A DNA stretch of 39,333 nucleotides, from NCBI GenBank assembly GCA_036381315.1, contig DASVDB010000174.1:1-39333 (forward strand). Direction: 5' to 3'. Below, one piece after another: positions 8,849-31,703 of the stretch. A program made the position numbers and the translations under genes. The notes under the pieces were generated by a model. The model searched no databases. It was not told the DNA's origin and was given only the letters and a program-made list of their open reading frames with translations. Each line of letters starts with the position of its first letter. The stretch's first letter is position 1. Source of the DNA: Bacilli bacterium. GTDB taxonomy: Bacteria > Bacillota > Bacilli > Paenibacillales > KCTC-25726.

Positions 8849-10393
8849 TCAGTGTTTGAAATGTCTAACGCCGGTAAACACCATTGCGATGCCGTGCGCA
8901 TTCGCCGCTTTGATCGAATCTTCATCCCTGATCGAGCCGCCCGGCTGGATGATTGCCGTTACGCCCGCTTTCGCCGCCAGCTCAACGGTGTCGCTCATCG
9001 GGAAAAAGGCGTCGGAGGCAAGCACGGCGCCTTTCGCTTTCTCTCCCGCCTGCTCCGCGGCGATTTTCGCCGCCCCAACGCGGTTCATTTGCCCCGCGCC
9101 TACGCCTACGGTCATATTGTCTTTCACCAGGACAATGGCATTCGATTTCACATGCTTGACCACTTTCCACCCGAACAGAAGCTGACGCAACTCTTCCTCC
9201 GTCGGCTGACGGTCGGTAACCACCTTCAAATCGGCGGCGGCAATTTGCTTCAGGTCCGCACTTTGCACGAGCGCCCCGCCTTCGACAGACGTGAGCAAGA
9301 GCTCGGGATCGCGCGCCGCGAGCGTTCCTTCGCCCAGTTTCAACAAGCGGATGTTTTTCTTTTTCGCCAATATTTCCAGCGCATCCGGCGTAAAATCCGG
9401 CGCGATGACAATTTCCAAAAAAATTCCGTGCAGCAACTCGGCGGTTGCCTGGTCAATCGTCCGATTGGCGGCGACGATGCCGCCGAAGATGGATACGGGA
9501 TCGGATTCGTAGGCCTTTTTAAATGCTTCAAGCACGTTCGTTCCCAAGCCGACGCCGCACGGGTTCATGTGCTTGACGGCGACGACCGCGGGCTCCTGAA
9601 ACTCCTTTACGATCTGCAGCGCGGCATTGGCGTCGTTGATGTTGTTGTAGGAGAGTTCCTTGCCGTGCAACTGCTCGGCAGTCGTAATGCTGCCCGCCTT
9701 CGCCAGCGGTTTGCGGTAAAAAGCCGCTTGCTGATGCGGGTTTTCGCCATAGCGCAGATCCTGCACTTTCTCATATGTGACGGTAAACCGTTCCGGCAGC
9801 GGATCGCCGGTTTGCTCCGACAAATACGCGGAAATAAGCGAATCGTAGGCTGCCGTATGACGAAACACCTTGGCGGCCAGCCGTTTGCGCAATTCCAGCG
9901 ACGTATCGCCGTTTGCGGCAATCTGCTCCAGCACTTCGTCGTAATCGGCGGCATCGACGACGACCGTCACGAACGCATGATTTTTGGCCGCCGAACGGAG
10001 CATCGTCGGACCGCCGATATCGATATTTTCGATCGCCTCTTCGTATTTGACGTTAGGCTTGGCAACCGTCTGCTGGAACGGGTACAGGTTGACGACAACC
10101 AGATCGATATAATCAAGGCCGAGTTCCTGCATTTGCCTTGTATGTTCGGCGTTGTCGCGAACCGCGAGGAGGCCGCTATGTACCGCCGGATGCAGCGTTT
10201 TAACGCGCCCGTCCATAATTTCCGGAAAACCGGTTACTTCACTGATGCCAATTACGGGAACGCCGTTTTGCTCAAGCAGCGTTTTCGTTCCTCCGGTGGA
10301 TATCATTTGCACCCCCATTTTTGCCAATTGAGCCGCGAACGGTACAATGCCTTTCTTATCTGATACACTGATTAGCGCTCTTTTAATCGCCAT
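8849..10393 (-). CDS. purH: Bifunctional AICAR transformylase / IMP cyclohydrolase
   Basis: Last two steps to IMP: formylation of AICAR with 10-formyl-tetrahydrofolate, then ring closure. About 514 residues. The N-terminal cyclohydrolase domain (about 1-140) shows [20 protein letters not shown] and [15 protein letters not shown]. The transformylase part shows [29 protein letters not shown] (catalytic Lys-His) and the closing [18 protein letters not shown] and IQPGGSIRD. The ATG at 10393 has AGGAGG eight bases upstream. It is separated from purN by 139 bp, the largest gap in the operon, which holds a dispersed hairpin repeat. Confidence 0.97.
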
Positions 10394-10442
10394 TTGATGA
10401 CCTCCTACACAATTTGCCAAGATTTAGTTCCGCTTGGTGCGC

Positions 10443-10468
10443 TATATCGGCACTTTTGCCGTTATATG
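10443..10468. repeat. Dispersed hairpin repeat, copy in the purN-purH gap
   Basis: ATATCGGCACTTTTGCCGTT at 10444-10463 is a short hairpin (CGGCA, loop CTTT, TGCCG) with TATA flanks. Two near-identical copies lie at 23734 and 23784. Here it sits inside the pur transcript, in a 139-bp gap that also holds GTGGC/GCCAC near 10507-10520. Confidence 0.6.
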
Positions 10469-10532: not shown

Positions 10533-11147
10533 TCAGTCGATCCGTACTTTGCGGCCCATCAATTTAACGCGGCCTTCCCGAATCCAGCGAATGACTTCCG
10601 GGTAGAGCCGGTGCTCCTCCGCGTGAATGCGCTCCGCCAGGGTCTCCTTCGTGTCGTTTTCGCGGATCGGTACGGGAACTTGCGCGATGATCGGTCCGGT
10701 GTCCATCCCGTGATCAACAAAATGCACGGTAACGCCGGTAACTTTCACGCCGTACGCGAATGCGTCGCCGATGCCATCGACGCCGGGAAAAGCGGGCAGC
10801 AATGACGGATGGATATTGATGATCCGTCCGTCGTATGCATTGATCAGCACAGGGGTAATCAGCCGCATGTAACCGGCAAGCACGACCAGATCAATCCGCA
10901 TATCCCGCAATTTGTCCACGATGACGCGCTCGTATTCTTCCCTGCTGCCGTAATCCCGCGGACAAAAAGCAAATACGGGCACCCCCACGCGCGTTGCGCG
11001 TTCAACCACGAACGCCTGCGGGCGGTCGCAGACAAGCAGTTCCACCCGCACATCCAGTTCCCCAGAATGGGCCGAATCGACGATCGCCTGGAAATTGGAG
11101 CCGTTGCCCGAGGCAAACACGGCAATGCGAAACGGTTTCCGCGCCAT
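10533..11147 (-). CDS. purN: Phosphoribosylglycinamide formyltransferase (GART)
   Basis: Third step of the pathway: transfer of formyl from 10-formyl-tetrahydrofolate to GAR. About 204 residues from this start. Motifs are FASGNGSNFQAI, LAGYMRLITPVLI, NIHPSLLPAFPG with the catalytic His, and HFVDHGMDTGPII with the catalytic Asp. Two starts compete. The ATG at 11147 has GGAG seven bases upstream and matches the usual protein length. The ATG at 11267 overlaps the purM stop in an ATGA and would add 40 low-complexity residues. I prefer 11147 as the core gene but the longer form is translatable in frame. Confidence 0.93.
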   Translation of the reverse strand: MARKPFRIAVFASGNGSNFQAIVDSAHSGELDVRVELLVCDRPQAFVVERATRVGVPVFAFCPRDYGSREEYERVIVDKLRDMRIDLVVLAGYMRLITPVLINAYDGRIINIHPSLLPAFPGVDGIGDAFAYGVKVTGVTVHFVDHGMDTGPIIAQVPVPIRENDTKETLAERIHAEEHRLYPEVIRWIREGRVKLMGRKVRID

Positions 11148-11267
11148 TTGTCCGCTCCATCCTCCCTGTCCACTTTGTCCGCTTTGCCTACTTTGCTCAC
11201 TCTGCCCGCTACGCCCACTCTGCCCGTTTTGCCCTCTCAATCCGCTTTGACCACTCTGCCCGCTCAT
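11148..11267 (-). repeat. Low-complexity 9-bp repeat tract between purM and purN
   Basis: On the minus strand the tract is a run of degenerate triplets reading Ser-Gly-Gln, such as AGCGGACAA and AGTGGGCAG. It opens with an ATG that overlaps the purM stop and stays in frame with purN. It would encode an extension rich in Ser, Gly and Gln, with scattered Arg. It is either a spacer grown by slippage or a true N-terminal tail of PurN. Confidence 0.7.
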
Positions 11268-12310
11268 ACGCGCACACCCGCAAACGTGACCGTTTTCCCG
11301 CCCGGGGTTATGGTTCCGATAACCGCCGCTTGCTCGCCAGTTTCCGCGGCGATGCGGACCGCCAAATCCGCCTGCTCGGCCGGAACCACCAGCACCATGC
11401 CCACACCCATATTGAATGTGCGGAACATATCGTAATGGCTGATGTTGCCCGTCTCCTGCAACAGATTGAAGACAGCGGGGATTTGCCATGTGCCATACGT
11501 TATGTGCGCATTCACGCGATCAGGCAAAATGCGCGGAATGTTTTCAATGAATCCGCCGCCGGTTATATGGGATATGCCCTTGACGGTGACACGGCGAATC
11601 AGGTTCAGGACCGTTTTGACGTAAATTCTGGTCGGCGCAAGCAACACTTCGCCCAGCCGCGCGATGGGCCCAAGCTCCGGTACGGTATCGGTCAATTGCA
11701 TTCCGCGATCCTGCAGCAAAAGCTTGCGCACCAACGAAAAGCCGTTGCTGTGCAACCCGCTGGATGAAAGCCCGATGATCGCATCCCCCGGCGCAATCGT
11801 CGTTCCGTCGATGATCGCTTTGCGCTCGACTATGCCGACGGCAAATCCGGCGATATCGTATTCATCGGCGTCATACATGCCCGGCATTTCCGCCGTCTCG
11901 CCGCCGATCAGCGCACAGCCGGCTTGCACGCACCCTTCGGCTACGCCGCTTACGATCGCTTCGATTTTTTCCGGCACGACTTTGCCGCACGCAAGATAAT
12001 CGAGAAAAAACAACGGTTCCGCGCCCGACACGACGATGTCGTTCACGCACATCGCCACCGCGTCGATGCCTACGGTATCGTGTTTATTCATCGCAAAGGC
12101 AAGTTTCAGCTTGGTGCCGACGCCGTCAGTGCCCGATACCAACACGGGATCCTCGTACTTTTTCCCATCCAAGCCGAACAGCCCGCCGAAACCGCCCAGG
12201 TCGGCAAGCACTTCGGGACGAAAGGTTCGCTTGACATGGCGTTTCATGCGCTCCACGGCTTCATTTCCGGCGGAGATATCGACTCCGGCCTGTTTGTATG
12301 CATCGGACAC
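11264..12310 (-). CDS. purM: Phosphoribosylformylglycinamidine cyclo-ligase (AIR synthetase)
   Basis: Fifth step: ATP-dependent closure of FGAM to aminoimidazole ribonucleotide. About 348 residues, family-typical. It shows the ATP-binding [36 protein letters not shown] and [15 protein letters not shown]. The start is a GTG at 12310, ten bases after GGAG, giving an opening [11 protein letters not shown] that matches other PurM proteins. A GTG three codons upstream lies against the ribosome-binding site. It sits 14 bp after purF; its stop overlaps the upstream candidate start of purN by 4 bp. Confidence 0.96.
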
Positions 12311-20958: not shown

Positions 20959-21055
20959 ACAATTTCATTGGACAGCAAATCGGTCGCTCTCATTCCGTAT
21001 GCGGGCAACCGCCGCGCTCGATTCGGCCATGCCCTTGGCAAATGCAACCTTTCGC

Positions 21056-21126
21056 CGCCCATAGTCCAAAAATTTACGGTTTTCGGGTAGAGACTACCGG
21101 GCCGTATCCCCGGCATTATATGAGCG
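21056..21126 (-). promoter_or_regulatory. Guanine-class purine riboswitch aptamer, purE leader
   Basis: Minus-strand P1 arms CGCTCATA and TATGGGCG enclose the conserved ATATAATG, GATACGGCCC, GTCTCTACC and GGACTATGG blocks. A P2 arm GCCGGG pairs with CCCGGT. The discriminating base in GGACTATGG is C, which in the xpt-type aptamer selects guanine or hypoxanthine. When purine is high the downstream hairpin should form and stop the pur transcript. Confidence 0.88.
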
Positions 21127-21178
21127 TTTGATGTTCAATTGTATATTACTATTTCACTTTTTACCTGATTGCATTATA

Positions 21179-23410: not shown

Positions 23411-23434
23411 TGGACAAAGGGACAAATGGACAAA
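23411..23434. repeat. Three tandem 8-bp repeats in the pbuG expression platform
   Basis: TGGACAAA, GGGACAAA and TGGACAAA follow each other without gap between aptamer and terminator. In RNA this gives three UUUGUCC blocks. A similar TTTGGACAAATGG occurs near 80-92. Confidence 0.6.
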
Positions 23435-23443
23435 CCTTGCGCC

Positions 23444-23514
23444 CGCTTCGTAGTAAGATCATTCCGGTGACCTTGTAGAGACTCCCGAGCCAATCCTCAG
23501 GATTATACGAAACG
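23444..23514 (-). promoter_or_regulatory. Guanine-class purine riboswitch aptamer, pbuG leader
   Basis: P1 arms CGTTTCGTA and TACGAAGCG pair over nine positions with one wobble. Between them are GTATAATCC, GGATTGGCTC, GTCTCTACA and CTTACTACG. P2 pairs CCTGAG with CTCGGG and P3 pairs AAGGTCA with TGATCTT. The specificity base in CTTACTACG is C, as in guanine aptamers. Confidence 0.85.
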
Positions 23515-23532
23515 CGTTTGCATTTCACCTTT

Positions 23533-23609: not shown

Positions 23610-23733
23610 ATTGCCCGGCAGGCGAAACGGCCGAGCGAGAATTCGCTGTAGTGCACGGCGGAATCGTACGCCAACGCTCTCGGACCGTTGTATGCCCAGC
23701 GTTGCATCAACCTTTTATACAACACTAGTGTCC

Positions 23734-23803
23734 ATATCCGCACTTTTGCCGTTCTAGGGCCGGTTCGCTCCGCATGGGGCGTTATATCCGCACTTTTGCC
23801 GTT
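23734..23803. repeat. Two copies of the dispersed hairpin repeat, 50 bp apart
   Basis: ATATCCGCACTTTTGCCGTT occurs at 23734-23753 and again, identical, at 23784-23803. Compared with the copy at 10444 one base (C for G) breaks one stem pair. Neither copy lies in a gene. Confidence 0.7.
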
Positions 23804-23812
23804 ATACGCCAC

Positions 23813-23857
23813 TAGCGTTGCATCGAGATCAGGAGAAACAAGATTGATGCAACGCTA
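23813..23857. repeat. 12-bp perfect inverted repeat
   Basis: TAGCGTTGCATC (23813-23824) and GATGCAACGCTA (23846-23857) are exact inverted copies around 21 nt. AGCGTTGCATCAA also occurs at 23698-23710. It may act as a terminator on the plus strand (AT-rich, T-run after), though no plus-strand gene precedes it. Confidence 0.6.
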
Positions 23858-23866
23858 ATATTTAAA

Positions 23867-24045
23867 TTTTTTGTGAAAAAGCACATATAATTTTCTCGAA
23901 ACTCGATTTTTAAGCGATTATATATGAAAAACCACATATATTTGGCATGGGTTTACAAATTTTCCGCAAATAAATGTGAAAAATCACATACATTTGTCGC
24001 AAACTCCGGTTTTTGAGAAAATGTATGTGAAAAAACACATAAAAT
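23867..24045. repeat. Four dyads with a 51-52 bp period, 3' of guaA
   Basis: Cores TGTG-AAAAAN-CACA start at 23872, 23923 (TATG variant), 23975 and 24026, giving steps of 51, 52 and 51 bp. The DNA between cores is also loosely similar, so the whole unit of about 52 bp is repeated. The array begins about 10 bp after the guaA stop and would lie in its 3' untranslated region. Low-melting hairpins could form. Function unknown. Confidence 0.8.
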
Positions 24046-24054
24046 TGCCGCGAA

Positions 24055-25593
24055 CTATTCCCACTCGATCGTTGCCGGGGGCTTGGACGTGATATCGTAG
24101 ATGACCCTGTTGACGTTTTGCACCTCATTTACGATACGGTTGGAAATTCGCTCCAGCACATCATAGGGAATGCGCGCCCAATCCGCGGTCATGCCGTCGA
24201 TCGATGTGACGGCGCGAATGCCGACCGTGTAGGAATACGTCCGCGCGTCGCCCATAACCCCGACGCTGCGCATATCGGGCAGCGCGGTGAAATACTGCCA
24301 GATTTCGCGGTCCAGTCCCGCTTTGGCGATCTCCTCGCGCAAAATGGCGTCGGATTCCCGCACAATCGCCAACTTTTCTTCCGTCACTTCGCCCAATACG
24401 CGAATGGCCAAGCCCGGTCCGGGGAAAGGCTGCCGCCAGACGATTTCCGCAGGCAGACCGCATTCTTCCCCGACTTTGCGCACTTCGTCCTTAAACAGCG
24501 CCTTCAACGGTTCCACCAGCTTAAACTTCATATCTTTCGGCAAACCGCCGACATTATGGTGCGACTTGATCGTTTGCGCGGTTGCGGTCCCGCTTTCGAT
24601 AATATCCGTATAAAGCGTGCCCTGGGCCAGAAAAGCGAATTCCCCCAGCGCGCGGCACTCTTCATCGAACACATGAATGAACTCGGCCCCGATGATTTTC
24701 CGCTTTTGCTCCGGATCCGCCACTCCCGCCAATTTGCTTAAGAAACGCTCCCGCGCGTCAACTTTAACGACATGCATATCAAACTTTGCGGAAAATGTCG
24801 CCATGACGCTTTCCGCTTCGCCTTTGCGCAACAAGCCGTGATCGATGAACATGCAGGTCAGTTGGTCACCGACCGCTTTATGCAGCAGCACGGCGACAAC
24901 GGACGAATCCACGCCGCCGCTCAACGCGCACAACACTTTTTGCGTGCCGACCTGCGCACGGATATCGCGCACCGTGTCATCAATAAATGTTTCCATGCTC
25001 CATTTGCCTTCGCAACCGCAGACGTCAAACAAAAAGTTGCGGAGCAACTCGTTTCCGTATACCGTATGCCGAACTTCCGGATGGAATTGCACGGCGTACA
25101 GCTTTTTCTCCGGGTGGCTCATGGCGGCAATCGGCGCATCCGCCGTGCTCGCATCCACAACGAACCCGTCCGGAAGCACCGTCACATGGTCGGTATGGCT
25201 CATCCAAACTTGCTGCGAGCGTTCCAATCCGCGCGCAAGCGCGCAACCCGGCATAAATTCGACGACCGCCTTGCCATACTCCCGCTTGGCCGCAGGTACA
25301 ACCTTACCCTGAAAATGCTGGGACATGAGCTGCATGCCGTAACAGATGCCGAGAACGGGAATGCCCAAATCATATACGGCGGGATCGACTTGCGGAGCAT
25401 TTTCCTCATATACGCTGGCCGGACCGCCGGAGAAAACGATGCCGCGCGGATTTAATTTGGCGATCTCCCCAGCCGGGGTATGGTGCGGCAACAACTCGCT
25501 GTACACGCCGAGGTCGCGGATTCTTCTGGCGATCAATTGATTGTACTGGCCGCCAAAATCCAATACAACAACAAGTTCCGATGGTTTGTTCAT
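24055..25593 (-). CDS. guaA: GMP synthase (glutamine-hydrolysing)
   Basis: Converts XMP to GMP with glutamine and ATP. About 512 residues, family length. The N-terminal glutaminase has [19 protein letters not shown], the nucleophile in [10 protein letters not shown] and the His in QFHPEV. The ATP-pyrophosphatase domain has the P-loop [17 protein letters not shown]. The C-terminal dimer domain ends KPPATIEWE. The ATG at 25593 has GGAGG seven bases upstream; an ATG at 25641 would add 16 unrelated residues and start upstream of the predicted transcript. It has its own promoter and no purine riboswitch, unlike purE and pbuG. Confidence 0.97.
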
Positions 25594-30416: not shown

Positions 30417-31703
30417 CTATTGCCGTGGCGCGCTTTTATCGCGCAACTCTATCATTCCAGTACCGCGGCTAATTTTGACAGATACGATTTCACAGTCGAA
30501 TAGCTGAGCGGCCAGGCGAAGCGAAATCCGTACGCGCCCCGCTTCCAATTTGATCGCGCCCGTTCTCACTGCAATTTCCGGCATTTCCGCCGTCTTATCG
30601 AAAAATTCCCCGTCCAGCGGACGCAATTGCCAATGATGCCGCCCATATATGAGCGTGGCCGTTTTCGAGAATTGATTCCAGCCGATATCCCCGTCCAACC
30701 AGTCGGACAAATCTTTTAGCGGCACATAAAAATGCCCGTTTTGCAGCGCAGCCTGCCGCAAGTTCAATGTTTTGCGCTGTGCGCCGTCGTGCCAAACGAG
30801 GTTTAAACACGTCGGCGATTTACTCTCGGATTTACTCTCGGATTTACTCTCATGATCGGCTATCGCCGCCAACATATTCCGGAAATCTGCCGCTGTCACG
30901 TTGCGCGGCGGTATTTTGGGGCCCAACGGGAAGTGGACGGGCCGTACTTTTTCATTGAGCGCGGCAAAATGGTAGCCCTTCTCTTTAAAAAAGCGGATAA
31001 TATCCGGCAGCGCTTTGACGGACTCGGCATGTCCCGCCCCGTCATGCAAAAGGACATGCACCTCCTTGGGGAACGGCCCTTTTTTGACGTTGGCCACAAT
31101 CTCCGCCGCCGGAACGCCTTTACGCTGCGAGTCGCCGCTGTCGATATTCCAATCGTATACCTCGTATCCAGCCTGATCGAGATAGTAGAAATAAAAGGCG
31201 TCAAAATGGTTGTACGTTCCTCCCGGCGCCCGCAAAAGCTTCGGCCGAACGTCGGCAACCCGGGCGATGATCGCCTCGGTGCGCTGAATTTGCTCCCAGA
31301 AGTCGGCGAAATCCCGATAAATCTCCGCATATTGATGATTAAACGTATGGTTTCCGAGCGCATGGCCTTCCCGCACGATCCGCCTGATTGCATCCGGATG
31401 GGACTGCGCGTTATTCCCCAGCACAAAAAAAGTCGCCTTGATTTTTTCTTCTTTTAAAATATCCAAAACTTCCGGCGTCAACGCGCTCGGCCCGTCGTCA
31501 AACGTGAGATAGACGGTCGGTTGCTCGGGATGTGCGAACGTTTTTGGCGACGGCGGCAGCTTCTCTTGCTTCAGTTCCAGGTAAACCGCGTTTTGCCCGG
31601 CGCCATTGGCGGCCGCCCCGACAGCGGCAAATCCAAATATCAGCCAAAAAGATAACATTGCCCCGCAGAGCAGTTTGCTTGTTTTGCGAAAATGTCCGTT
31701 CAT
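30417..31703 (-). CDS. Secreted polysaccharide deacetylase with C-terminal copper-amine-oxidase-like domain
   Basis: About 428 residues. A signal segment (LLCGAMLSFWLIFGFAAVGAAA) leads to the NodB-type deacetylase domain: VYLTFDDGPS with the catalytic Asp pair, ALGNHTFNHQYAE with the two metal His, LRAPGGTYNHFDAF, and the closing VHVLLHDGAGHAE. It likely removes N-acetyl groups from peptidoglycan or another glycan outside the cell. After a linker with three ESKS repeats comes a C-terminal part (FYVPLKDLSDWLDGDIGWN) resembling the stalk domain common in Paenibacillus secreted enzymes. The ATG at 31703 sits directly after a strong hairpin; the frame continues upstream through it, but that part is repeat DNA. 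Confidence 0.88.
   Translation of the reverse strand: MNGHFRKTSKLLCGAMLSFWLIFGFAAVGAAANGAGQNAVYLELKQEKLPPSPKTFAHPEQPTVYLTFDDGPSALTPEVLDILKEEKIKATFFVLGNNAQSHPDAIRRIVREGHALGNHTFNHQYAEIYRDFADFWEQIQRTEAIIARVADVRPKLLRAPGGTYNHFDAFYFYYLDQAGYEVYDWNIDSGDSQRKGVPAAEIVANVKKGPFPKEVHVLLHDGAGHAESVKALPDIIRFFKEKGYHFAALNEKVRPVHFPLGPKIPPRNVTAADFRNMLAAIADHESKSESKSESKSPTCLNLVWHDGAQRKTLNLRQAALQNGHFYVPLKDLSDWLDGDIGWNQFSKTATLIYGRHHWQLRPLDGEFFDKTAEMPEIAVRTGAIKLEAGRVRISLRLAAQLFDCEIVSVKISRGTGMIELRDKSAPRQ
30817..30852. repeat. Three tandem 12-bp repeats inside the deacetylase gene
   Basis: GATTTACTCTCG occurs twice and GATTTACTCTCA once, end to end. On the coding strand they read Glu-Ser-Lys-Ser three times, a hydrophilic linker between the catalytic and C-terminal domains. 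Copy number may vary by slippage. Confidence 0.85.

Follow-up and report, generated by a model that had tools for sequence, protein, structure and literature searches.

A phased array of four dyads after guaA is one copy of a dispersed repeat linked to a nuclease-like protein family of the Bacilli

We analyzed a stretch of 39,333 nucleotides from a bacterium of the class Bacilli (Paenibacillales; contig DASVDB010000174.1 of GenBank assembly GCA_036381315.1), which we call the window. In the window, the minus-strand gene guaA (identified by the Pfam domains PF00117 and PF00958) ends at 24055. An earlier reading, made from the sequence alone, had described four dyads just after the guaA stop, one of them a variant, with starts 51, 52, and 51 bp apart. 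We read the dyads at 23872, 23923, 23975, and 24026, as described, and the array begins after a gap of 14 bp. The absence of a classical terminator was also borne out (there is no terminator-like site between 23300 and 24100). The loosely repeated linkers are real and have a two-unit period (a 73-nt direct repeat, 103 bp apart, 74% identical). The pattern TGTGN6CACA occurs three times in the window, always within this array, versus 0.21 expected, and none of 100 shuffles reached three. The feature is wider than first described: it is a 180-bp genomic repeat, with two dyads of another family alongside. The relevant features are:

23864–24041, minus strand: core of a dispersed element with four dyads (C102-type array), 14 bp beyond the stop of guaA; 74–84% identity over 174–192 bp with ten other places in the genome
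23868–23889: dyad 1, core TGTGAAAAAGCACA at 23872–23885 (direct reading and TGTGN6CACA search)
23919–23940: dyad 2, the variant, core TATGAAAAACCACA at 23923–23936 (direct reading and dyad pattern search)
23971–23992: dyad 3, core TGTGAAAAATCACA at 23975–23988 (direct reading and TGTGN6CACA search)
24022–24043: dyad 4, core TGTGAAAAAACACA at 24026–24039 (direct reading, TGTGN6CACA and dyad pattern searches)
23734–23756: dyad of a second family (C44 type), ATATCCGCACTTTTGCCGTTCT, matching the array 3' of the C44 paralog
23784–23806: second C44-type dyad, 50 bp from the one at 23734
10444–10465: solitary C44-type dyad, ATATCGGCACTTTTGCCGTTAT, between the ORFs at 8849–10420 and 10533–11489 (pattern search)

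Between the two dyad families, the guaA–permease intergenic region also has inverted repeats around GTTGCATC (23813–23824 with 23846–23857, and 23700–23714 with 23840–23854). They may belong to yet another dyad family or form a long-looped hairpin. A similar stretch, CCACATATAAT, had been pointed out near position 110. It does exist, as a single partial match, but it has no dyad or adjacent repeat and looks like chance.

The ten other places were found by searching the organism's own genome (2.78 Mb in 183 contigs) with a 195-bp region. In all, there are 11 full copies of an element of about 180 bp, and when these are aligned, all 11 have four dyads at 51/52/51. The consensus dyad is TATATGTGATTTTTCACATATA. 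The dyad pattern has 34 matches in the genome, versus none for the reversed pattern, and the matches include a twelfth, divergent four-dyad array in contig C102. There are also three solo dyads (contigs C58, C66, and C134). Similarly, the C44-type pattern occurs at 55 places, versus none for its reversed-pattern control. The earlier reading had held that the array would probably be drift if the unit occurred nowhere else and close relatives kept the flanking genes but not the dyads; instead, the unit is dispersed through the genome. The ends of the element are neither uniform nor sharp, as some copies have up to 145 bp extra in common on one side. A rho homolog has its 3' end 225 bp from one copy (L018:1582–1761, contig C1), and another copy (L009:3027–3520, contig C85) lies between ftsY-like and ylxM-like genes, which are usually close neighbors. 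We rejected a CRISPR array because unique spacers are absent: the linkers are common to copies or repeat within one array.

The array's partner is not guaA but a nuclease-like gene at another place in the genome, which encodes a protein of 227 amino acids (the C102 protein). The divergent C102 array, a relative of the dispersed arrays, lies 37 bp 3' of this gene. Members of the gene family are found in 295 of 395 Paenibacillales genomes and also in other Bacilli. Scanning named genomes gave 51 loci from Paenibacillus, Cohnella, and relatives. With a template for the dyad, we found chained dyads just 3' of the gene at 27 of these loci, and none were chained in the reversed sequence. The chains have up to 26 dyads, and their spacings are 52 bp (72 times), 51 bp (44 times), 53 bp (once), and 102 bp (once). 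A sequence-neutral scan for palindromes found further arrays at loci that the template missed. About a third of the C102-clade loci lack a 3' array in either scan, and some of those have a 5' array. Arrays follow several of the homologs in other Bacilli (for example, six copies of ATAAGGCGGAAAAACCGGCTTAT at 52 bp), though not every one. In G048, a genome from another family, a frameshift-split homolog is followed by 11.6 copies of a 52-bp unit.

The dyads and the protein are also associated across genomes. First, protein distance correlates with half-site distance (Mantel r = 0.71, n = 42, with duplicate loci and false calls removed), and 0 of 5,000 permutations reached this value. As a pattern in sequences, this shows co-inheritance or co-evolution of the protein and the dyads; it is not proof of binding. 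Second, three or more C102-type sites are present in 37 of the 69 genomes with a C102-clade gene versus 7 of the 326 genomes without one (Fisher p = 6e-26, uncorrected for phylogeny). Gene presence was read by hand from the genome listing with a 60% identity rule, and at least one of the "gene-negative" genomes in this count, G038, has a broken copy of the gene.

The genome has six members of the gene family, and the other five all have dyad-like repeats, of different sequence, directly 3' of the stop codon. The C116 paralog has TTAGTTGGATTTTGTCCAACTAA, with steps of 52, 63, and 51 bp; the C44 paralog has TATAACGGCAAAAGTGCCGATATA, with a step of 51 bp; and the repeats 3' of the C20, C9, and C88 paralogs have steps of 51 and 62, 50, and 51 bp, respectively. 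At 30 loci with homologs of the C116 protein, we found GGA-N5-TCC dyads (66 dyads, versus 3 in the reversed sequence), many of them arranged as 51-62-51 and others as 51-72-51. A histogram of all palindrome distances peaks at 51/52 in both clades. The steps of the paralogs' arrays are quantized at about 51, 62, and 72 bp, or 5, 6, and 7 helical turns. These other arrays independently support the helical phasing that had been proposed for the guaA array, and such steps favor phasing along double-stranded DNA over a role as RNA. (In P. timonensis, L194:1350–1560 has four dyads of the form AATAAGGGC-N-GCCCTTATT at about 51-72-51, with no family gene in the fetched locus. This is a further dyad family.)

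We then considered what the partner protein might do. The AlphaFold2 model of the protein (pLDDT 86, pTM 0.62) combines a core that resembles PD-(D/E)XK enzymes with a winged helix. In Foldseek searches, the first part of the model matched the catalytic domain of I-Bth0305I, the Vsr-like protein NGO0050, and the R2 endonuclease, and the second part matched MarR regulators, all with modest E-values (0.001–0.05). The match to I-Bth0305I (PDB:3r3p) has a TM-score of 0.67, normalized to the target domain, and E = 0.05. With the DUF559 profile (PF04480), the paralog L124 scores 22.7, above the cut-off of 20.6; P0001 (13.0) and the others are below it. Asp69, Glu82, and His89 are invariant in 30 of 30 sequences. 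Lys84, the usual catalytic lysine, is present in 3 of the 30, which are three paralogs, and 25 sequences have methionine, including every sampled C102-clade sequence. Because methionine replaces the canonical catalytic lysine, nuclease activity in the C102 clade is doubtful. The models point to a Vsr/DUF559-like PD-(D/E)XK fold joined to a MarR-like winged helix.

Is the unit mobile? P. phocaensis has two copies, 96.5% identical, of a unit made up of leader, gene, and array. (In both, at L087:2480–3000 and L090:2480–3000, the leader is a tandem repeat of the AGTAGTAAGG type and of variable length.) One copy is at a site that is common to P. timonensis and P. rubinfantis, and the other is not. 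P. timonensis has the matching site without the second unit, with flanks that are 86 and 95% identical. At the filled site, the unit lies in an array of yet another family, where it has taken the place of about 75 bp lying between dyads 2 and 3. A caveat is that this is the only clear filled/empty pair, so the evidence is thin, and it is a replacement, not a clean insertion. In a second lineage, gene-less four-dyad elements are 87–90% alike over about 212 bp and have different flanks. A second comparison for an empty site, at L155, gave no such pair: the array is also present in the nearest genome, and the other genomes do not have the right flank in common. As the 11 copies in the genome of the window include ten that are only about 74–84% identical to the guaA copy, we saw no recent movement there. 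No target-site duplication was identified at L155, L151, or L160, and the ends vary between copies, which bears on the criteria for MITEs and insertion sequences.

The known systems that come closest are the REPtrons (REPIN-RAYT, or TnpA-REP), in which palindromic repeats lie near a gene, many extragenic copies have no gene, and groups of proteins co-evolve with their palindromes (PMC8266576, PMC3116915). Palindromes beside a gene and dispersed gene-less copies are both found here. RAYTs, however, are HuH/tyrosine enzymes that act on single-stranded hairpins, which are preceded by GTAG and form inverted pairs (PMC8266576, PMC3116915). In contrast, our protein is PD-(D/E)XK-like with a winged helix and has no match to HuH/tyrosine (Y1) transposases (profile and fold searches found no HuH family), the sites resemble dyads in double-stranded DNA and occur about four at a time, in helical phase, and none of the 11 copies has GTAG directly before its dyads. 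Also, no evidence of movement has been reported for tnpA-REP genes (PMC8266576), whereas one gene-and-array unit here appeared at a new site. Because the HuH enzyme and the GTAG motif are missing, we did not classify the system as a REPtron.

Other systems share single features. EDxHD or Vsr-type homing endonucleases such as I-Bth0305I have a similar nuclease domain, judging by the predicted fold, but our protein is outside any intron or intein, has a C-terminal MarR-like winged helix, and is accompanied by a dyad array. TnsA of Tn7 has a PD-(D/E)XK domain and then a winged-helix domain, and the ends of Tn7 contain several sites of about 22 bp that are bound by TnsB. The domain order is the same in our protein, but it has no match to the Pfam TnsA family. 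BOX, ERIC, and other dispersed bacterial repeats or MITEs are small, modular, and intergenic; in contrast to these, each type of repeat here can be assigned to one particular neighboring gene.

We think it somewhat probable that this is a mobile system that resembles REPtrons but uses an unrelated enzyme, and that the guaA array is a non-autonomous copy that lacks the gene. In its autonomous form, the element would pair a gene with an array of about four dyads directly behind it, and the gene product would join a PD-(D/E)XK/Vsr-like nuclease to a MarR-like winged helix. Most likely, dimers of this protein bind the dyads of its own array. With steps of 5, 6, or 7 helical turns, four such dimers would all lie on the same side of the helix and might form a synaptic complex. 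The nuclease domain could then cut at or beside the array, and repair or strand transfer could place a new copy elsewhere, either of the array alone or of the array together with the gene. We infer these binding, cleavage, and copying steps, as we would any consequence for guaA, and a neutral landing in its 3' flank is the simplest reading of the guaA copy. The earlier reading had listed a protein-binding array, a mobile repeat family, and a 3' RNA structure as possible roles. The first two, taken together, give the best explanation, and the third is disfavored (see below).

Alternatively, the arrays could serve the host in an architectural or regulatory role and be maintained by selection for it. 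The protein would now be a DNA-binding protein, perhaps catalytically dead, that bridges or marks dispersed sites, much as matS or parS sites are used. The dyads are better conserved than the linkers among the 11 copies (0.89 versus 0.80 for the alignment columns), the catalytic lysine is methionine in 25 of 25 sampled C102-clade sequences, and the quantized helical spacing would fit cooperative assembly. However, each genome has several paralogs, and the dyads next to each paralog's gene have a sequence of their own; close species differ in presence; the distribution is patchy; and one unit sits within another family's array. We consider this explanation unlikely.

A role in conflict or defense seems quite improbable. 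The array beside the gene would provide self-limiting or decoy sites for a nuclease that attacks invading DNA in which the dyads are present, and the dispersed arrays would be relics of insertions. A nuclease-like fold with a winged helix and a patchy, paralog-rich distribution would be expected of such a system, but the host chromosome would be full of its own targets. Also, neither PADLOC nor NCBIfam models include a family for the protein (PADLOC matches did not exceed noise), and we found no relative of it in phage records, one in plasmid records, and one remote relative in viral contigs.

It is very improbable that the arrays act as RNA, as hairpins that are co-transcribed with the gene upstream and work as 3' stabilizers or guide-like RNAs. 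Arrays do lie mostly 3' of genes, and the guaA array folds better than shuffled sequences on either strand (z = -2.9 and -4.0). But palindromy accounts for these z-scores, and there is no covariation: G.T mismatches (30) and A.C mismatches (25) are about equally common in the dyad arms of the 11 copies, which is not the G.U bias of an RNA, and compensatory pairing was slightly below permutation. Furthermore, the element can point either way with respect to its neighboring gene (compare guaA in the window with rho at L018), Rfam has no family at the guaA array, and RNA would not need spacing by helical turns. Finally, the AT-rich, imperfect repeats might come from neutral drift or be an ordinary tandem repeat that has no partner, but this is scarcely credible and is refuted by eleven dispersed copies, zero control matches, and an association, across the class, with a single protein family.

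Returning to a mobile system with an enzyme unrelated to that of REPtrons, we tentatively propose, at a little under even chances and from comparisons of sequences, that it represents a new class of mobile element in Bacilli. In this class, a nuclease of the PD-(D/E)XK type that also has a winged helix would recognize its own quadruple phased array of dyads in double-stranded DNA as the mobile end, disperse gene-less arrays over the chromosome, and have a private site for each paralog. We found no published description of this gene-array system in the open-access literature. If the proposal is correct, it would give a function-linked explanation for many unannotated dispersed repeats, account for a widespread and unnamed protein family of the Bacilli, and be a second, enzymatically unrelated solution to the task that REPtrons perform. 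It would also offer a natural collection of many pairs of protein and site, in which every gene lies next to the site of its product, and these could show how winged helices recognize DNA. Panels of strains would allow the gain and loss of arrays to be counted directly.

The window has some other features. Two purine riboswitches (Rfam RF00167) are on the minus strand: one at 21042–21143 (83.9 bits), upstream of a purE-like AIR carboxylase, and one at 23431–23530 (64.9 bits), upstream of a xanthine/uracil-type permease. An 18-bp tandem repeat of CTTTGCCCACTCTGCCCG (5.1 copies, 11173–11264) lies where the long formyltransferase ORF (10533–11489) overlaps the next ORF upstream; the true start of the formyltransferase gene is probably further inside this ORF. 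A perfect 12-bp tandem repeat, GATTTACTCTCG, is at 30817–30851 (2.9 copies).
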